DNA of 64,000 nt from NCBI GenBank assembly GCA_016784025.1, contig JADHVL010000013.1:1-64000 (forward strand). Direction: 5' to 3'. Shown piece by piece: positions 6,941 to 62,124 of this stretch (position 1 is the stretch's first letter; every line of letters begins with the position of its first letter). Made by a program: the position numbers and the translations under genes. The notes beneath the pieces are model-generated. The model did no database searches. It worked only from the letters and a program-made list of their open reading frames with translations, and was not told the DNA's origin. Origin of the DNA: Fidelibacterota bacterium (lineage in GTDB: Bacteria; Fidelibacterota; UBA8477; JABMPR01).

Positions 6941-9493
6941 ATGAGGAAAGAGGAACGATTGGATAAACCAAAACGAATATACCAAATTGCAAAGCAGATT
7001 AATATCTCTCATAGCGAGATAGTGACCTTTCTTAAGGATCAAGGACTTGATGTAACCAATCATATGAGTCCTGTTGATGAAGAAACTCACAATCTCATTC
7101 TCAAAAACTTTGCTTCTGATCTTTATCAAATTGAGCTGGATCAGAAAGAAGTTGATCGCCGAGCCCTTGAAGAGCAGCGTCGTGTAGAAGAAGAAGAACG
7201 CATCCGCAAAGCTGAGGAAGAAAAATTAGCCCGAGAAAATGAAGATCGTTCAAGACGGGATGCTGAAGATCAGCGTCGTCAAGAGATTGAAGATGCCAAG
7301 CGAAAAGCAGAAGAAGATCGTAAAGAAGCAATCGCCAAAGCCAAGCGAGACATCGAAGAAGAAGAAAATCGCAAACTTGCTGAAGCACAGGCTGCCAAAG
7401 AGCGTGAAGATCTGGATAGACAGAAGAGCGCTAAGAAGGCTGCCAAGCCTACGATTCTTCGTCCTGGTGAAGATCCAAATAAAAAGACTGAAGAATCCAC
7501 CAAAGACAAAATTATCGCCAAGAAAATTGAGCGCAAGATTAAGCATGTTGTGAAAGCCACCAGCCCTAAGGGTAAAGGCAAGCCTGTTAAAAAACGCCGC
7601 GCCTTTGATCAGAAGGAAGTAGATGCCTCTATTAAGAAGGTAATGACCTCCCTTGATACTGGTAAAAAGCGTAAGCGTCGCAGAGATGGAAAACAGGAAG
7701 AATTGGCAGCGGATGAAGCCTATCGCGTCTCTGAGTTTGTCTCTGTACACGATTTTGCTGATCTCATAGAAATCGATGTGGCTGACATTATCAGCAAGTG
7801 TATGGATATGGGTATGATGGTGACCATCAATCAGAGAATTGATAAGGACACTATTGAACTCCTCGCTGAAGAATTTGAAATTGCTGTTGTCTTTGAAGAC
7901 AACACTGTTACCACCATGGATGAAGAGATTGCCCTCGAAGAAGTTGATGAGGCTGATCTCAAGCCTCGTCCACCAGTGGTAACCATTATGGGTCATGTTG
8001 ACCATGGAAAAACTTCCTTACTTGATTATATCCGTGAAGCCAATGTCATCTCCGGTGAAGCCGGTGGTATTACCCAGCATATTGGTGCTTATTCAGTATC
8101 AGTTGGTGAGGATAAGCTGATCACCTTCCTGGATACTCCTGGTCACGAAGCCTTTACCGCTATGCGTGCTCGTGGAGCTCAGGTTACTGATATCGTTATT
8201 ATTATCATTGCTGCTGATGATTCGGTGATGCCTCAAACTATTGAAGCCATTGATCATGCTAAAGCTGCCGGTGTCCCAATTGTGTTTGCCATTAACAAAA
8301 TGGATGTCCAGGGTGCCGATGCCGAACGAGTTCGACGTGAACTTTCAGAACGTGACCTGCTGGTTGAAAGTTGGGGAGGAAAAATCCCTGATGTAGAGAT
8401 TTCTGCTAAGATGGGAACCAACATTGATGAATTGCTTGAGACCGTTGCTCTTGAGGCTGAAGTTCTTGATTTAAAGGCTAATCCCTCAGGTAAGGCTCGT
8501 GGAATTGTGGTTGAATCCAAACTTGATAAGGGTGTTGGAGCACTTGCTACCGTTCTGGTGAGCAGAGGAACCATCAAAATTGGTGATCCCTTTGTTTGTG
8601 GAGATTACTCCGGTCGTGTTCGTGCCCTAAAAGATGATCACGGTAACAGGATTAAGAGTGCAGGACCTTCTACACCAGTAGAAATCCTCGGTTTTAGCGA
8701 TGTACCCCGTGCAGGTGATAACCTGATTGTCATGAAAAATGATAAAGAAGCACGTGATGTGAGTACCCAGCGTCGCTCCCTGCGTAGAGAACAAGACTTC
8801 AAACGTATGCGCCATTTGACTCTGGATCAGATCTCTCTCCAGATATCTGAAGGAAAGGTGAGAGAAGTGCCTCTCCTGATCAAAGGTGACGTTGATGGAT
8901 CCATTGAAGCGCTGGCAGATTCATTCATGAAAATGTCCACCACCGAAGTAGCAGTTCGCATCATTCACCGCGGTATTGGTATGATCAAAGAATCCGATGT
9001 GTTACTGGCAGCTGCCTCAGAAGCCATTATTGTTGGTTTTAATGTGACTGCTGATAGCAATGCCAAACTCCTGGCCAAGGCTGATGATGTTGAAATTCGC
9101 TACTATGACGTGATCTATGCAGCAGTTGATGATGTCTTTCAAGCCCTTGAAGGCTTACTGGAACCTGATGTGGTTGAGAATGAACTCGGAAAAGCAGAAG
9201 TCACTGACCTTTTCAAAATTCCTAAAATTGGTATCATTGCCGGATCAATGGTCACAGAAGGTGTTGTTCGCCGAAATGCCAAGGTAAGACTCATCCGTGA
9301 AGGGGAAACGCTGTTCAACGGTGAGTTGAATGCTCTCAAACGTTTCAAGGATGAAGTCAAGGAAGTCATGGAAGGTAATGAATGTGGAATTTCATTGAAG
9401 GACTTTAGTAAAATAAAAGTCGGTGATGTGATGGAATTCTATTCAGAAGAAATTATCAAGCGAAAATTGGAATCTTCTTCGAAGAAAAAGTGA
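6941..9493 (+). CDS. infB: translation initiation factor IF-2
   Basis: An 850-residue GTPase that places initiator tRNA on the 30S subunit. The N-terminal IF2_N module (KPKRIYQIAKQINISHSEIV) precedes a long charged linker rich in Glu, Arg and Lys (about 70-240), a second IF2_N-like segment, and the G domain with GHVDHGKT, DTPGHEAF and NKMD. Domains II-IV complete it. The ATG at 6941 is listed. A TTG at 6959 with AGAGGAA upstream would give the common MDKPKRIYQIA start and is an equally good choice. Confidence 0.96.
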   Translation: MRKEERLDKPKRIYQIAKQINISHSEIVTFLKDQGLDVTNHMSPVDEETHNLILKNFASDLYQIELDQKEVDRRALEEQRRVEEEERIRKAEEEKLARENEDRSRRDAEDQRRQEIEDAKRKAEEDRKEAIAKAKRDIEEEENRKLAEAQAAKEREDLDRQKSAKKAAKPTILRPGEDPNKKTEESTKDKIIAKKIERKIKHVVKATSPKGKGKPVKKRRAFDQKEVDASIKKVMTSLDTGKKRKRRRDGKQEELAADEAYRVSEFVSVHDFADLIEIDVADIISKCMDMGMMVTINQRIDKDTIELLAEEFEIAVVFEDNTVTTMDEEIALEEVDEADLKPRPPVVTIMGHVDHGKTSLLDYIREANVISGEAGGITQHIGAYSVSVGEDKLITFLDTPGHEAFTAMRARGAQVTDIVIIIIAADDSVMPQTIEAIDHAKAAGVPIVFAINKMDVQGADAERVRRELSERDLLVESWGGKIPDVEISAKMGTNIDELLETVALEAEVLDLKANPSGKARGIVVESKLDKGVGALATVLVSRGTIKIGDPFVCGDYSGRVRALKDDHGNRIKSAGPSTPVEILGFSDVPRAGDNLIVMKNDKEARDVSTQRRSLRREQDFKRMRHLTLDQISLQISEGKVREVPLLIKGDVDGSIEALADSFMKMSTTEVAVRIIHRGIGMIKESDVLLAAASEAIIVGFNVTADSNAKLLAKADDVEIRYYDVIYAAVDDVFQALEGLLEPDVVENELGKAEVTDLFKIPKIGIIAGSMVTEGVVRRNAKVRLIREGETLFNGELNALKRFKDEVKEVMEGNECGISLKDFSKIKVGDVMEFYSEEIIKRKLESSSKKK

Positions 9494-9515
9494 CCCCGCA
9501 GATAAAGTATAGAAA

Positions 9516-9851
9516 ATGGGTATAGCAAGACAAAAACGGGTCGCAGAGGCCATCAAAGCAGCTGTAGCTGAATATCTGATCTTAAACCTGGCCAATGCTA
9601 CACCGGGTTTTGTCTCTGTCACCAATGCAAAAATGACCCCGGATTTGAAAATATCATATGTCTACTTCTCCATATATGGAAGCGAAGAGGATGTTGCCTT
9701 TACGTTTAAAACTTTAGAGCAACACAATGGTCGTGTCCGCTTTCATGTTGGCAAGGAAGTCCCACTCAAATATGTGCCTGAGCTCAGATTCTTTATTGAC
9801 GACTCATTAGGTTATGCTGATAAAATGAATCGGGTGATGAAAGATCTATGA
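9516..9851 (+). CDS. rbfA: 30S ribosome-binding factor RbfA
   Basis: A 111-residue KH-type cold-shock and 16S-maturation factor. It begins MGIARQKRVAEAIKAAVAEYL and contains SVTNAKMTPDLKISYVYFSI and the closing VPELRFFIDDSLGYADKMNR, the family signature region. It overlaps truB by four bases (ATGA), so the two are translationally coupled. Its position after infB is the conserved bacterial order. Confidence 0.94.
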   Translation: MGIARQKRVAEAIKAAVAEYLILNLANATPGFVSVTNAKMTPDLKISYVYFSIYGSEEDVAFTFKTLEQHNGRVRFHVGKEVPLKYVPELRFFIDDSLGYADKMNRVMKDL

Positions 9852-38133: not shown

Positions 38134-38616
38134 CTACGCCATCCACAACTGTCTATCCAGAGTACGGTACTGAATAGCTTCTGATATATGTTCCGCTCGA
38201 ATTTCAGAACACTCTGATAGATCAGCAATGGTTCGGGAGACCTTGAGGATACGATCGTAGGCTCGAGCACTCAATCCCAGGTTGGTGATAGCAGTCTTGA
38301 GGAGGGCAGCGGAATCACCATCAACCTTGCAGAGCCCTCGAATCATTTTAGGCGGCATATCAGCATTTGAATGGATATGGGGCTCATTGACAAAGCGTTT
38401 GATTTGAGTATCTCTGGCTAATTGAACCCGCTTTCTAACCTCATATGAAGTTTCTCCGTCTTGTTTACTGGATAACTCTTCAAAGGGAATGGCAGGGACC
38501 TCTATATGCAGATCAATCCGATCTAGAAGTGGTCCAGAAATTTTAGCCATGTATTTTTGAATCCCAATACTACTGCAGGTGCACTCATGCCGGGGATCGC
38601 TGCTATAGCCACAGGG
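38134..38616 (-). pseudogene. comM: C-terminal fragment of comM (YifB family), severed by the element
   Basis: On the minus strand the reading frame from 38616 gives PCGYSSDPRHECTCSS and then KISGPLLDRIDLHIEVP, which is the C-terminal part of the Mg-chelatase-like ATPase ComM. It ends with the usual NLGLSARAYDRILKVSRTIA region. The 5' part of the gene lies at 55289-56343. There is no start of its own until a Met at 38550. ComM is a helicase aiding branch migration during natural transformation in other bacteria. Confidence 0.92.
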
Positions 38617-38628
38617 CTACGGGTAGAC
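38605..38628. other. left attachment site of the integrated element
   Basis: comM sequence (ATAGCCACAG) meets element sequence (CTACGGGTAG) at a GG core, 38615-38616. The core was deduced by comparing this junction with 55289-55290: rejoining the comM halves through a single GG gives CACAGGGGCAGG and restores one reading frame of 1536 bases. Confidence 0.8.
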
Positions 38629-53475: not shown

Positions 53476-53754
53476 ATGAAGAACGAACAATCAACGAGAC
53501 ACTTTGTAAAGGCACAAATGCAAGAGGAGAATGCCTACACTGGGGATGAATCACTATTACCAATCGAGTTAGTTAAAGGTGACTATTTACCAAAGGATAT
53601 CTTTACTACTACGAATATCGAAGCTCTGCTTGGTATAGCAGAAAAGAGAATCGAAACACTCAAAAATTTATCATCCATGATCAATCAGGGTGATCTTGAA
53701 AATGCGTCCGCTCTGATAGATCAATTAATTAATAGTGAAAGTAAAGCTTCATAA
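53476..53754 (+). CDS. small protein coupled to the serine recombinase
   Basis: A 92-residue ORF with TGGAG six bases before its ATG at 53476. It is helical at its C-terminus (IEALLGIAEKRIETLKNLSS) with no known motif. Its stop codon shares a base with the recombinase start (TAATG), so the two are coupled. An accessory role in recombination is possible. Confidence 0.5.
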   Translation: MKNEQSTRHFVKAQMQEENAYTGDESLLPIELVKGDYLPKDIFTTTNIEALLGIAEKRIETLKNLSSMINQGDLENASALIDQLINSESKAS

Positions 53755-55319
53755 TGAAGGTCGAAAGAATGCGATGTGCGGAATTGATCCGTGTATCAAC
53801 TACTAAACAGAACTTACCCCGGCAACAAGCAATCGTGAGTGATATCGCTCGTCGGTTGAATGCAGAAATAGTGCATTCAATAAAACTGAAAGGCATTTCA
53901 GGGACTATCGTTCATGAAGAGCCTGAGTTCATTCGTCTTATGCAAGAACACGATAATGGTAACACGATTGATGCATTGATTGTGCCGGAGGATGACAGGC
54001 TTATAAGGTCGGATACCTATCTATTATTTGCATTAGAAGAATTACGACGACGAAATATAAAACTAATTAGTCAAGATGGTAATCCCAGAGACTTAGGTGA
54101 TTCAAGGCAACGATTACTTGTCCTGCTAAATGCCGGAATTGGTGGTATTGAACGTGAAGATATCCAAAAACGTTTTTTCTCAGGGAAGGAGAGGAAGAGA
54201 AAGCTTGGTATGCACGTCGGTGGTCCTAAAGCTCTAACAATGGGTATCATTTGGGATAAAGAGCTGGAGATGTATGGAACTAATGAGCTAATGGACATTG
54301 TCAGGAAAATGTTTATCGGATTCGATAATGGTAATACGAACTATAGTGACCACGCAAGAGCTGCAGGTATCACGCTACGTAGTGTTAGAAATATTCTTAC
54401 CAATGAGACGTATATTGGAATTAGAAATTACACAGAGAAGCGTGGATTGGAGAAACATAATCGACGGTGGGCACCTCAATATGATAGGAAAAAGATAAAA
54501 CGTACTCCAGAGGAAATAATTCGTGTAAAGATTAAGTTTAAAGAAGGTAAACCTCCCATTGATCGAGAATTGTTTGATCGAGTTCAGCTCAGGATCAAAA
54601 ACAAAAGCACTACCTATGAACAAGGTCATCAAAAGAGGGACTCTCGCTTCTTATTCCATGGGTTCATATACTGCCAGGATTGTCAAGTGCCTATGTATAC
54701 AGTATGTGGGAGACGGTCTGGGGAGAAATATCTACATGATTATTACAAGTGTAAGCTTCATAGAAGGAAACCGGTTTCGGTCAAACCTATTTGCATAGGT
54801 GACAACCCAAAACGGATCGAACTTGAGAATGAGGTCATGGACTTTTTATCGGCACTTACGTCATCAGAGCAGTTTAGAAAAAGATTGATCAAGGGTATTA
54901 AAAGTTACATAGCCCAGTCCACGAAACAAGGTGAAGGATTAAAACTCAACCAGGAAAAGATCAAAATACAGAATAAACTCAATCGCCTTGCAGATCTTTA
55001 TATTGATGGAAACATTCCCGCTGATCACCTTAAGAAAAAAGAGTTGGAGCTTACAAAAGATTTGAATCAGATTGACGCACAATTATCAATGTCTGACAAC
55101 AAATCGGTTAGCATGATTGAAAAATTTATTGAGATGATCTCAGAAACAGGGATGATCACATCAAAAATATGTATTCTGCCACGAAATGAGATCAGAGCGT
55201 TTGTGCAAAATTTGGGAATTTCTTTCTACGTTAAGGGCAAATCACTTTCTGCATTTAGTATAGCTGGCTATAAAATCGGTACCCCTATGGGCAGGGATTC
55301 ATGGCACTCAAAAGGATAA
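53754..55319 (+). CDS. large serine recombinase (integrase); 3' end crosses the attachment site
   Basis: A 521-residue protein. Resolvase domain with nucleophile Ser15 ([10 protein letters not shown]), a Recombinase domain (about 170-285, [20 protein letters not shown]), a zinc ribbon ([16 protein letters not shown] with later Cys) and a coiled coil ([20 protein letters not shown]). It drives strand exchange at a 2-bp core. The last nine codons (after ATG 55287) lie in comM DNA. In the excised circle the frame would instead run 37 codons into 38617-38726 and stop at 38727, giving about 549 residues. Confidence 0.92.
55280..55300. other. right attachment site of the integrated element
   Basis: Element sequence (GGTACCCCTAT) meets comM sequence (GCAGGGATTCAT) at GG, 55289-55290. 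Together with the left site at 38615 it defines a 2-bp core and an attP with arms TACCCCTAT and CTACGGGTA, which are partly inverted. Confidence 0.8.
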
Positions 55320-56343
55320 AATTAGCAGGATAGGTGAGACTCATACTGGCACGACTGATAGTGACTTCTGTATTTTCAAGAGGCTGACGCAATACCTCCA
55401 GTACATTTTTCTGAAACTCTGGTAATTCATCCAGGAATAATACACCGTGATGAGCCAGACTCACCTCTCCTGGACGTGGGATTCGACCACCACCTACTAA
55501 TGCGGCGTCTGAAATGGTATGATGAGGTGACCGGAAAGGTCGGGTGGCAACCAATCCTTCGGTCTTGACCATTCCTGCAATCGAATGAATCTTGGTGGTT
55601 TCTAAAGCTTCACCCAGAGTCATTTGAGGAAGAATAGTTGGAAATCGTTTAGCCAGCATGGTTTTACCTGATCCAGGTGGACCTATCATGAGGACATTGT
55701 GACCACCTGCTGCAGCTACTTCGAGAGCACGCTTCACATGGGCTTGTCCTCTCACATCAGCGAGATCAACGGGATAAGACTGTGCTTCGGAAAATAATTG
55801 ATCAGCATTTACCTCAACTGGCTCAATTATTTGCTCACCATTTAGAAAGCGGATGGCTTCCAGCAAGGTGTTCACAGGTATAACATCAATATTTCCAGTC
55901 ACGGCGGCCTCACGGGCATTCTGAGCAGGAAGAATGAGTCCCTTCATCTCATGCTCATGAACACCAACAGCTGATGGTAGAGCGCCTTTTACGCCTCGTA
56001 GAGTGCCATCCAAAGACAATTCACCCATAAGCACATAATCTTCCAGATCTTCATGGATAACGATCCCCAAAGCAGCCAGAATACCAATGGCGATGGGAAG
56101 ATCAAATGCTGAGCCCTCCTTTTTAATATCTGCAGGGGCTAGATTTATGGTGTATGCCTTAGGTGGGAATCTAAAACCACTATTCTTAATGGCTGAGATC
56201 ACCCTATCCTTACTTTCTCTCACTGCCAACTCCGGCAGTCCAACAGTTGAATAACGAAAGGCGTGGCCTTCGACATTCACCTCGACTTCAACCAGATAGG
56301 GATCTATTCCAATTAATGAACTGCTTAATACGCGTGCCAGCAT
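55289..56343 (-). pseudogene. comM: N-terminal fragment of comM (YifB family), severed by the element
   Basis: The minus-strand frame starts [20 protein letters not shown] at 56343, with AAGGAG upstream. It has the Lon-like N-terminal domain, Walker A ([10 protein letters not shown]) and Walker B (LFLDELPEF), then breaks at AMNPCP, just before the cysteine region, where the element begins. A stop in the element at 55285 would give a 352-residue truncated protein. Joined to 38134-38616 through the GG core it gives 1536 bases, an intact frame of 511 codons plus stop. The ATPase is thus disrupted. Confidence 0.95.
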
Positions 56344-56481
56344 AGCAAACTCCTTTTTGAAGAATGACAAAATTGAAAGGTCAGAAGACCTTCAAATGAT
56401 GATACAGTTATAGAGTGAAGCGGTGGAGAATGTACCTGGTTAGCTGGACATATTCTCTAGATCAAGATATGAAACAGGATC

Positions 56482-59596: not shown

Positions 59597-60904
59597 ATGT
59601 TTAACAGTGACATTTACAATAGACGCAGACAAATTTTAATAAAGCTTATGGGTAAGGGTGTTGCTATCCTAAAAGGGGCACCAGAACAAATTCGGACAAA
59701 TGATACGGAATACCCCTATAGACAGGATTCAGACTTCTTTTATCTTACAGGATATACTGAGCCTGGTGCAGCTTGCATTATCGATCCCAACAATAAGGAC
59801 CATCCATTCACGTTATTTGTGCTTCCCCAGGATCCAAAAAAGGAAGTATGGACTGGTTGGAGACTCAGTTTTGAAGATACGGTTGATAAGTATAAAGCTG
59901 ATCAGGCATTGGATATTGCAGAATTTGAAACAAATGCATTAGCTGCCATGAAGACCTCGTCAAAAGTATACACCAATCTAAACCATGATAAGGTTCACCA
60001 GTACAAGATGCTGGACCATGTTGGTCAAGTGCGCAAAGAAGTGCAAAGGACCGGTGGAGGACCAGTAGGTTTAGAATCTGTGGGTTCGCTCACCCATGGC
60101 ATGCGACTCATAAAAGATGAACATGAGTTGGAGCTTATGCAAAAAGCTGCAGATATCTCTGCGACTGCTCATTCAAAAGCCATGGCGGCCTGTTCACCAG
60201 GCATGTATGAATATCAGCTCCAGGCTGTTCTTGAGAGTCATTTTGTCCATGAAGGCAGTGCTGGACCCGCTTATACATCAATCGTGGGGGCTGGAGACAA
60301 TGCCACCGTTTTACATTATATAAAAAATCGTGACCAGATTGTTGATGGTGACATGATACTTATAGATGCAGCCGCCGAATATGACATGTATGCTGCAGAC
60401 ATAACCAGGACGTTTCCTGCAAATGGCAAATTCTCTGCAGCCCAGGCAGCCATCTACGGAGTGGTTCTTAAAGCACAGAAGGCAGTCATCGCATCTTCTA
60501 AACCAGGAGTTACCTTTCAGGAACTACATGATATGGATTTGCGGCTCCTTGTTGAGGGCATGATAGAGATTGGATTGCTAGAGGGCACTGCCGACGAAGT
60601 TATTCAAAATGAGAGCTATCAAGACTATTTCATGCATAAAACCGGTCATTGGTTGGGTCTGGATGTACACGATATGGGTAACTACATGGCTGATGGTGCG
60701 TCCATCGTGCTTAAACCCGGCATGGCTTTCACAGTGGAGCCTGGCATTTATGTCAATTCAAAATCCAAGGCACCTGAAAAATTCAGAGGTATTGGAATAA
60801 GAATCGAGGACGATATTGTGATTACTGAGTCTGGGAACAAAAACCTCACCGCGGCTGTTCCTAAAGAGATATCTGAAATTGAAGCACTTATGAATGAAGG
60901 TTGA
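59597..60904 (+). CDS. pepP: Xaa-Pro aminopeptidase (M24B)
   Basis: A 435-residue enzyme removing N-terminal residues before proline. The aminopeptidase-P N-domain (AILKGAPEQIRTNDTEYPYR, then DSDFFYLTGYTEPGA) precedes the pita-bread domain. Metal ligands are in LIDAAAEYDMYAADITRTFP, KTGHWLGLDVHD, FTVEPGIY and GIRIEDD. It has GAAGGAG before its ATG. The downstream selenoprotein candidate starts 13 bp after its stop and is likely in the same transcript. Confidence 0.94.
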   Translation: MFNSDIYNRRRQILIKLMGKGVAILKGAPEQIRTNDTEYPYRQDSDFFYLTGYTEPGAACIIDPNNKDHPFTLFVLPQDPKKEVWTGWRLSFEDTVDKYKADQALDIAEFETNALAAMKTSSKVYTNLNHDKVHQYKMLDHVGQVRKEVQRTGGGPVGLESVGSLTHGMRLIKDEHELELMQKAADISATAHSKAMAACSPGMYEYQLQAVLESHFVHEGSAGPAYTSIVGAGDNATVLHYIKNRDQIVDGDMILIDAAAEYDMYAADITRTFPANGKFSAAQAAIYGVVLKAQKAVIASSKPGVTFQELHDMDLRLLVEGMIEIGLLEGTADEVIQNESYQDYFMHKTGHWLGLDVHDMGNYMADGASIVLKPGMAFTVEPGIYVNSKSKAPEKFRGIGIRIEDDIVITESGNKNLTAAVPKEISEIEALMNEG

Positions 60905-60917
60905 ATCAGGAAAAACA

Positions 60918-62069
60918 ATGAAAGTACTTCTTAAACGTTCAGGGTTGATGCTCCTGCTCATTGTCCTGGTGACAGTGGGCTGTAAAAGTGAGACGACAAA
61001 TCCCATATATAATGCCAATGAATTCACGCTCATGGTTGCAGCCAGTAACAATGGGGAAGTCGGTCCCTGCGGCTGACGATCTAATCCACTTGGCGGTCTT
61101 GCCAGGAAGCATACGATTATGAAGGGTCTTGCTGAAACAGAAGCACTCTATTTTGTTGATGCTGGAGATGCATTGTTCAAATACCCATATATTCCAGAGG
61201 ATCAACGTGATCGTTTAAAAGAAACGGCCGAGGCAATCATCTCATCCTACAATGTGATGGAATGTCAGGTTATGAATGTGGGTACCAACGACCTCGCTGC
61301 AGGTCTTGAATTTATAGTAGAATTGGAGAATACTGCTAATTTCCCCCTCATATCAGCAAATACTAAAGATGCCAGTACGGATAATTTTCTATTCGAACCC
61401 TATACACTGGTTGAAACCCATGACCAGATTCTGGGATTTATTGGTGTCACGAAAGGTGATAAACGAGTAAAGGATTTTGCTTTTTCAGATCCAATTGAAG
61501 CCGCTCAAAAAGCTATTGATGAAATCAAGGACAAAGTTGATCTAGTTTTTTTAATGGCCAATGGGGATGACAAATTTGAAAGAGCCTTGATGGCAGAGGT
61601 TAAAGGAATCGATTTTCTCATCCGGTCCAAGTCTGGATCCCTTCAAAGAAATCCGAAGCAGCAGGATGGTACCACCATCATTCGTATCGGCAAACAAGGT
61701 AAGTATGCAGGTGTTTTGAGGATCAGGAATGTTGACCCTATAAGTCAAATGAAGAATGTGAGCTCACAGTACACGCGCATCAAATTTGCAGATAATCGTC
61801 TCAATGCAATGGCCAAAGGGATTGAAGAGGGCAAGACCCTTGAAGAACACTTCGCCAATGATGAAAACAGATTAAAGTTAATCACACGCCTTCGGGATGA
61901 ACGCAAAACCAATGTAGATCTAATCAAGAAACTGAAGAATAGCTATTATCTTGAACCGATTCCACTAAACGAAAAAATCGAGGATACTCCCGAGATAGCG
62001 CTCATTGTAAAGGATTATATGCCTGAGGAAAAAAAGACCACCGAAAAGGATAATCACAAAGGGCATTAA
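60918..62069 (+). CDS. probable selenocysteine-containing lipoprotein, 5'-nucleotidase/metallophosphatase-like
   Basis: A 383-residue protein when the in-frame TGA at 61074 (codon 53) is read as selenocysteine. The signal (LMLLLIVLVTVGCKSE) ends in a lipobox, VTVGC. The segment reads GPCG-U-RSNPLGGLARKHT; in Cys relatives I recall PCGC-x4-GGLARR. After it come FVDAGDALF, MNVGTNDLAAGLEF and FLMANGDDKFERALM, which are degenerate forms of the UshA-like metallophosphatase motifs, so it may be a redox or metal protein rather than a phosphatase. AGGAAAAA precedes the ATG. Conventional calling would give a 52-residue stub and a separate gene at 61119. Confidence 0.85.
61074..61106 (+). promoter_or_regulatory. 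UGA codon and bacterial-type SECIS hairpin
   Basis: After TGA (61074-61076), CUUGGC (61089-61094) pairs with GCCAGG (61101-61106) around the loop GGUCUU. Eighteen bases separate UGA from the loop GG, the same as I count in E. coli fdhF, whose SECIS loop is also GGUCU. This hairpin would recruit SelB for selenocysteine insertion. Counted by eye, without folding software. Confidence 0.8.
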
Positions 62070-62090: not shown

Positions 62091-62124
62091 AAAAAAAGAG
62101 GCTGAAATATTCAGCCTCTTTTTG
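62091..62124 (+). terminator. rho-independent terminator
   Basis: AAAGAGGCTGAA and TTCAGCCTCTTT form a 12-bp stem with a 3-base loop and a T-run. It ends the pepP-selenoprotein transcript and, being symmetrical, may also end transcripts from the tRNA-Gly side. Confidence 0.88.

Follow-up and report, generated by a model that had tools for sequence, protein, structure and literature searches.

An in-frame UGA in a short-form UshA-like gene very probably encodes selenocysteine

The 64,000-nucleotide stretch of DNA analyzed here (the window) contains a frame interrupted by a single TGA, raising the question of whether this codon separates two unrelated reading frames or is read as selenocysteine (Sec) within one protein, and what such a protein would do. 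Positions 60918–62069 of the plus strand form one 383-codon frame, with its lone internal TGA at 61074–61076 and a TAA at 62067–62069. The first-pass annotation had proposed a likely selenoprotein, with UGA in a Cys-Gly-UGA motif and a SECIS hairpin behind it, and had described one frame in which a lipoprotein-like signal and GPCG are joined by the TGA to RSNPLGGLARK. The translation bears out the latter description: it starts MKVLLKRSGLMLLLIVLVTVGC and runs to GEVGPCG-TGA-RSNPLGGLARK, and thus contains both the PCGU/PCGC motif and the GGLxRK that follows it. Features of the locus are collected in Table 1; the hairpin downstream of the gene was absent from a consensus terminator scan, probably because its stem includes the T run.

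Table 1. Features in and around the UGA-containing gene, in window coordinates
Feature	Position	Strand	Basis
Short-form gene for a predicted UshA-like selenoprotein; product of 383 aa including predicted Sec53	60918..62069	+	NF041198, E = 1e-64, 219 bits
AGGA, ribosome-binding-site-like, 6 nt 5′ of ATG 60918	60908..60911	+	direct sequence reading
Predicted signal peptide; lipobox-like VTVGC, with Cys22 (60981–60983) as candidate lipidation site	60918..60983	+	translation judged by eye
C51-G52-U53 (CxU) motif; TGA 61074–61076 = predicted selenocysteine	61068..61076	+	homologue comparison
Predicted SECIS hairpin, stem CUUGGC/GCCAGG, loop GGUCUU	61089..61106	+	fold, conservation, covariation
Intrinsic-terminator-like hairpin 3′ of the gene	62093..62123	+	−19.1 kcal/mol, z = −6.6
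Xaa-Pro aminopeptidase (M24, pepP), 13-nt gap upstream of the gene	59597..60904	+	PF00557, PF05195; PRK10879 433 bits, cut-off 465

The family to which the read-through protein belongs is clear from profile searches. Although no family was matched in a Pfam search of this protein, NCBIfam NF041198 (UshA_like_PCGU), which combines the same PCG[U/C] motif with a UshA-like domain, was matched over profile positions 2–385 of 519. The window protein lacks positions 386–519, the tetraheme region, and this missing C-terminal part largely explains a score below the cut-off of 275 bits (the long form L099 reaches 618 bits). By score (219 < 275 bits), the window gene is a short-form relative of NF041198 rather than a strict member. 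Three alignments were built, of 24 (A1), 15 (A2) and 50 sequences (A4, the window protein plus 49 of 77 loci), and all 50 members of A4 match NF041198. Against solved structures, the family profile found the N-terminal domain of UshA-type nucleotidases (3ivd, 9.7e-31; 1ush, 4.5e-26), with a weaker match to SoxB (1.4e-15); ubiquitin matches in the PDB search, confined to residues ~266–361 and absent from the profile search, were rejected as spurious. UshA-like (seleno)protein family 2 (NF049981) belongs to the same superfamily and is weakly matched by the window protein (41.9 bits, cut-off 140); it is listed as CxxU, whereas the window protein and NF041198 are CxU (entries in PMC13188914). The phylum also contains paralogous UshA-like proteins (L056–L062) with NCxCP...EKR at the same place; three of them (L059, L060 and L062) have four CXXCH motifs, the ends of L059 and L062 weakly match a LysM protein, and L059 exceeds the NF041198 cut-off with Cys instead of Sec.

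The family is already catalogued as a selenoprotein in lists from 2008, 2022 and 2026, as their entries on it state. In the 2008 marine GOS survey, “COG0737, UshA-like” appears among 51 previously described selenoprotein families, as a CxU protein represented by 76 selenoproteins (from 20 samples) and 92 homologues with Cys (PMC2398784); the tables of PMC9312934 likewise give COG0737 UshA-like as CxU, and the listing in PMC13188914 names NF041198 alongside family 2, NF049981. The first-pass annotation was thus right to see a metallophosphatase-like family, given the UshA-type profile match, but its remark that this was not known as a described selenoprotein does not hold. The passages on the UshA-like family in these papers say nothing of the metal site, of any fusion to heme domains or of a form from Neomarinimicrobiota.

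If UGA-53 encodes Sec, relatives should carry Sec or Cys at the same position, and this was the case throughout. Among the best 80 of 86 relatives from the named-genome scan, which may not include the window's own record, codon 53 is TGA in 75 and a Cys codon in 5. Of its two search patterns, one lies upstream of the Sec codon and the other requires a codon for Cys at that position, so the scan was not biased towards TGA. About half of these best 80 come from Candidatus Neomarinimicrobiota, to which the window is assigned on the strength of its closest relatives (L064–L067 and L077; 81–91% protein identity), and the remainder are labeled Desulfobulbaceae, Desulfobacterales, Deltaproteobacteria, Proteobacteria, Chloroflexi and others. 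Two family genes (L139 and L141) lie in metagenome bins titled Klebsiella pneumoniae; these labels look wrong, and L141 clusters with deltaproteobacterial loci in a tree that did not include L139. Three PCG-TGA loci (L129, L133 and L139) are within the 75 of 80 and were left out of the 77-locus counts used below for neighbors, SECIS, hemes and tree. Across 40 genomes of the phylum, PCG-TGA was found in 32 (window genome included), PCGC in three (L053–L055) and other Cys motifs in two (CPTC in L050 and DCGC in L051); G008, G022 and G033 gave weaker matches and no full match to the gene. The statement in the earlier annotation that Cys relatives read PCGC is correct for L053–L055, L093, L106, L107 and others.

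The hairpin downstream of the TGA has the form first described. A six-pair stem (61089–61094 with 61101–61106, one pair being G-U) opens onto GGUCUU (61095–61100), with the stem starting 12 nt and the loop 18 nt past the TGA; the first-pass annotation likened it to E. coli fdhF, in which a GGUCU loop lies at the same distance. The minimum-energy fold (−8.9 kcal/mol) closes one extra G-U pair to leave a GUCU loop. The bacterial SECIS model, as set out in the relevant section of PMC13188914, comprises a loop of 3–9 nt with G in its first two positions, a stem of 4–16 bp, a spacing of 16–37 nt and an MFE of ≤ −7.5. All of these bounds enclose the window hairpin, with its loop of 6 (or 4) nt, G first, its stem of 6 (or 7) bp, its spacing of 18 (or 19) nt and its MFE as above. 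Compared with dinucleotide shuffles, the folding energy was not beyond chance, either for 39 nt (z = −0.79; matched by 42 of 200 shuffles), for the 24-nt core (z = −1.56; 16/200) or for a 51-nt stretch (z = +0.22; 113/200). Because shuffles often match −8.9 kcal/mol, the evidence for a SECIS is its conservation at synonymous sites, not its energy.

That conservation was assessed in 112 rows, of which 92 are distinct by 250-nt context (84 TGA and 8 Cys loci) and 20 are duplicates between two genome collections. At least five of the six stem pairs, in either of two registers, are present in 83 of the 84 distinct TGA loci, and GGTCT in 80 (it is absent from L025, L048, L127 and L128). When synonymous codons were drawn according to each gene's own usage, with both registers permitted in data and null alike, 27.7% (stem) and 16.5% (loop) were expected; stem and loop occurred jointly in 80/84 (95.2%), against 4.5% under this shuffling. 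A stricter observed count, of at least four unbroken pairs from the loop, gave 74 of the 84. Covariation was assessed in the 58 TGA loci (55 distinct rows) whose pairing in the first register is no worse than in the second, a choice that favors pairing there; the better stem of the other 26 is offset by one base. Among the 58, 96.7% of cells were paired versus 89.1% in shuffles, and 20 cells were changed on both sides versus 4.7, each value being reached in 0 of 500 shuffles. The number of pair types was mildly unusual (32/500 shuffles), and the number of pairs with changes on both sides (two) was not unusual, being matched by 398/500. Sliding the partner strand by 1–3 columns reduced pairing to 19–53%. 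The commonest compensatory change, CTT..AGG to CTG..CGG, is synonymous on both sides. Judged from these substitution patterns, the SECIS is conserved as RNA, beyond the constraint on the protein.

The eight Cys loci differ in what they keep of this element. The hairpin is lost in L053–L055 and has a different loop in L115 and L134. L093 (509–1654), L106 and L107 (both 7980–9572) retain GGTCT and 5/6 pairs after TGC, and are probable relics of a recent change from Sec to Cys; two of the three lie in records of Candidatus Electronema aureum (L106) and Desulfobulbus sp. F5.

The machinery for Sec insertion is encoded in the window genome (3.52 Mb, 47 contigs, 86% complete). All four genes that the first annotation had named as a check were found above cut-off: selA (512 bits, cut-off 268) and selB (343, 242) on the same contig, selD (371, 125), and tRNA-Sec, selC (72, 47). 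Together, the Sec/Cys site, the conserved SECIS and selABCD support the original proposal, and the gene is very probably a real bacterial selenoprotein. SelB and Sec-tRNA would recognize the GGUCU-loop SECIS just past UGA-53, and translation would continue. The selD gene of the same genome (L016, G000:C42:55748–56671) has an in-frame TGA near its N-terminus, in AGUAGK, and is probably a selenoprotein gene too.

What, then, might the protein do? The predicted product is a relative of the metallophosphoesterase-type domain found at the N-terminus of UshA and SoxB, with C-G-U in an insert after the former metal motif I. We take the UshA metal ligands to be D41, H43, D84, N116, H217, H252 and Q254 (UshA numbering). 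In the sequence alignment, the window residues at these positions are S, N, D, T, N, K and G, such that one of seven (D84) is kept. The insert, GExxPCG[U/C], directly follows metal motif I, and none of the 50 homologues of A4 departs from its C, G and U/C; its location beside the metal site is that given by profile and sequence alignment. Because a single ligand in seven is kept and the C-G-U insert follows the former metal motif, selenol/thiol redox chemistry is most likely, instead of phosphatase activity.

The relatives outside the phylum suggest where electrons might go. Proteins there are mostly longer, their extra tetraheme region being the part of NF041198 that the window protein lacks. 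Heme motifs were counted in 77 loci, 40 from the phylum (including L074, labeled only “bacterium”) and 37 others: exactly four CXXCH motifs occur in 32 of the 37 scored loci outside the phylum and in none of the 40 within it, and the window protein has no CXXCH. Two of the five heme-free loci outside (L115 and L131) end at contig ends. Of six proteins scanned, five matched Cytochrome_C554 (PF13435), and the sixth, L086, is a short form. Given that a tetraheme cytochrome c is attached to the domain in most loci outside the phylum, electrons in the long forms most likely travel between c-type hemes and the CxU pair; in the short form they would go to a separate partner. In a quick tree, which excludes L115, L127 and L131 as well as L129, L133 and L139, the phylum loci fall on one side of a branch with moderate support (SH-aLRT 89), and heme content and Sec/Cys state each require at least three changes. 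Elsewhere in the window genome, L144 (G000:C26:66000–79000) holds three multiheme cytochrome genes (11, 12 and 4 CXXCH), and the 189-aa stand-alone tetraheme protein (C26:72113–72559) is similar to the C-terminal part that the long UshA-like forms carry. We considered this tetraheme protein as a dedicated partner, but its gene lies among other multiheme genes and it may be a general carrier, and we do not claim that role for it.

A redox role runs against one published grouping: in its passage on redox motifs, PMC2398784 names UshA-like, SelD and FdhA as exceptions among major families with conserved Cys-based redox motifs. The invariant C-G-U/C and the tetraheme fusion argue for redox despite this 2008 exception. 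We favor selenol/thiol redox linked to c-type hemes, perhaps in sulfur chemistry. A more specific proposal is that a SoxB-like scaffold turned redox handles periplasmic sulfur (sulfane or thiosulfate). The SoxB thiosulfohydrolase model (TIGR04486) matches 50/50 members, albeit far below its cut-off, which the window protein does not reach (47 bits versus 550). Rhodanese-like and MauE/DoxX-like ORFs lie just upstream in 15 of the 40 phylum loci, fused in L086 and separate in L105, with Pfam confirmation in both of these, the loci scanned. In the vicinity of the Candidatus Electronema Cys copy are genes for a DsbC-like protein and for a SorB-like cytochrome, the latter scoring 61 bits against a cut-off of 93. 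Against this, the neighbors of the window gene are pepP and a TonB-C protein, which give no redox indication of their own, and upstream neighbors are unrelated in other clades (type 2 IPP isomerase in 3 loci, rarA/mgsA in 12). On balance, the sulfur-handling role, as a refinement of the redox reading, is less likely than not.

The pepP gene itself is probably co-transcribed with the UshA-like gene, and is the same-strand upstream neighbor in 18 of 77 loci, namely the close relatives; as a functional clue it was dropped, since neighbors vary between clades. Elsewhere in the window, comM (Mg-chelatase-like) is split into an N-terminal part at 55279–56373 and a C-terminal part at 38140–38622, both on the minus strand and ~16.7 kb apart. 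The gene is one ORF of 511–522 aa in 10 of the 11 relatives listed, the eleventh ending at a contig edge, and a serine-recombinase-like ORF (identified by eye; 53754–55319) adjoins the break, which looks like an element inserted in comM. A group II intron match (Rfam RF00029; 43.3 bits, gathering threshold 40) occupies positions 61–137 of the plus strand.

A selenoprotein that is still a metal-dependent phosphoesterase, with Sec as a metal ligand or regulatory residue, is unlikely. Similarity to UshA and SoxB is significant, the N-terminal domain being shared by profile match with UshA/COG0737 5′-nucleotidases and cyclic phosphodiesterases, and some homologues do retain ligands: among the 50, D41 is kept in 8, H43 and D84 in 28 each, and H217 and H252 in 9 each, with five of seven in L119 and four in two others. 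Some family members may therefore still be metal-binding. However, N116 and Q254 are each kept in one of the 50, at most two of the seven ligands remain in 41 of 50, and the window protein differs from UshA/COG0737 in having six of seven ligands replaced, the PCGU insert, and no 5′-nucleotidase C-terminal domain. With C, G and U/C invariant and relatives fused to tetraheme domains, we regard a retained phosphoesterase function as improbable, and selenol/thiol redox chemistry as the better account.

There remain two readings in which Sec plays no part. An open frame alone cannot discriminate Sec from other decoding of UGA, by near-cognate read-through or a reassigned code. The alternative residue, though, is Cys in all five non-TGA loci among the best 80 of 86, and a conserved SECIS accompanies a full selABCD set. 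Furthermore, of the 32 phylum genomes whose gene has the TGA form, 30 have selA above its cut-off (G013 has no selA match, and in G014 the match is partial, lies at a contig end and stays under cut-off), compared with none of the five with a Cys-type form, although these five fall in three families and are not five independent cases. Within the window genome, TGA is not a general sense codon, because the selA and selB frames lack it while selD has one. Decoding as anything other than Sec is thus a very remote prospect. In all, selA marks 33 of 40 phylum genomes, which, with the full set in the window genome, indicates that the phylum at large uses Sec. We take SAR406 to be the same phylum as the window genome. 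Three SAR406 cells are listed as orphan-selD organisms in Table 1 of PMC5029168.

Equally hard to credit is a start-site artefact, in which the real protein would begin at ATG 61119, which opens a 316-aa ORF and is the likely pick of an ordinary gene caller, with the upstream frame a leftover: the 52 upstream codons hold the signal-like stretch and conserved GExxPCG, of the best 80 of 86 loci, 75 preserve both the frame and the TGA, and the Cys copies read straight through. In comparisons with three close relatives, dN/dS was 0.09–0.18 before the TGA and 0.04–0.14 after codon 66, and the SECIS-bearing codons 54–66 showed no non-synonymous and 0, 0 and 3 synonymous changes. Both flanks of the TGA are under purifying selection, and hence the gene does not begin after it, as it would if homologues started near 61119; as far as these rates tell, the two sides behave as one protein.

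Overall, we assign a probability of about 0.92 to an exported, probably lipid-anchored UshA-like selenoprotein, in which UGA-53 would be decoded through SelB and the SECIS, and whose role is most likely redox and not that of a phosphatase. Comparison establishes the family, the UGA at a Sec/Cys site, the conserved SECIS, the Sec machinery, the replacement of aligned ligands and the heme fusion of relatives; Sec insertion itself, export, redox activity, substrate and partner are inferences. A fuller picture, which we put forward tentatively and at somewhat less than even odds, is that of a metallophosphoesterase fold turned selenol/thiol electron-transfer enzyme: the metal site would have decayed, C-G-U would have taken over, and the domain would be mostly wired to tetraheme cytochromes outside the phylum, with the Neomarinimicrobiota form heme-free, lipid-anchored and reliant on a partner outside the protein, its probable setting being periplasmic sulfur chemistry.

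These results bear on how such genes are annotated and how the family might be understood. Since the NF041198 threshold lies above the short-form score, we infer that pipelines dependent on it may truncate the gene at UGA or start it at 61119. The Cys copies that keep a GGUCU hairpin (L093, L106 and L107) are natural comparisons for the contribution of Sec. For an uncharacterized family, ligand loss together with the tetraheme fusions yields a testable idea: that its chemistry would be redox, not hydrolysis.
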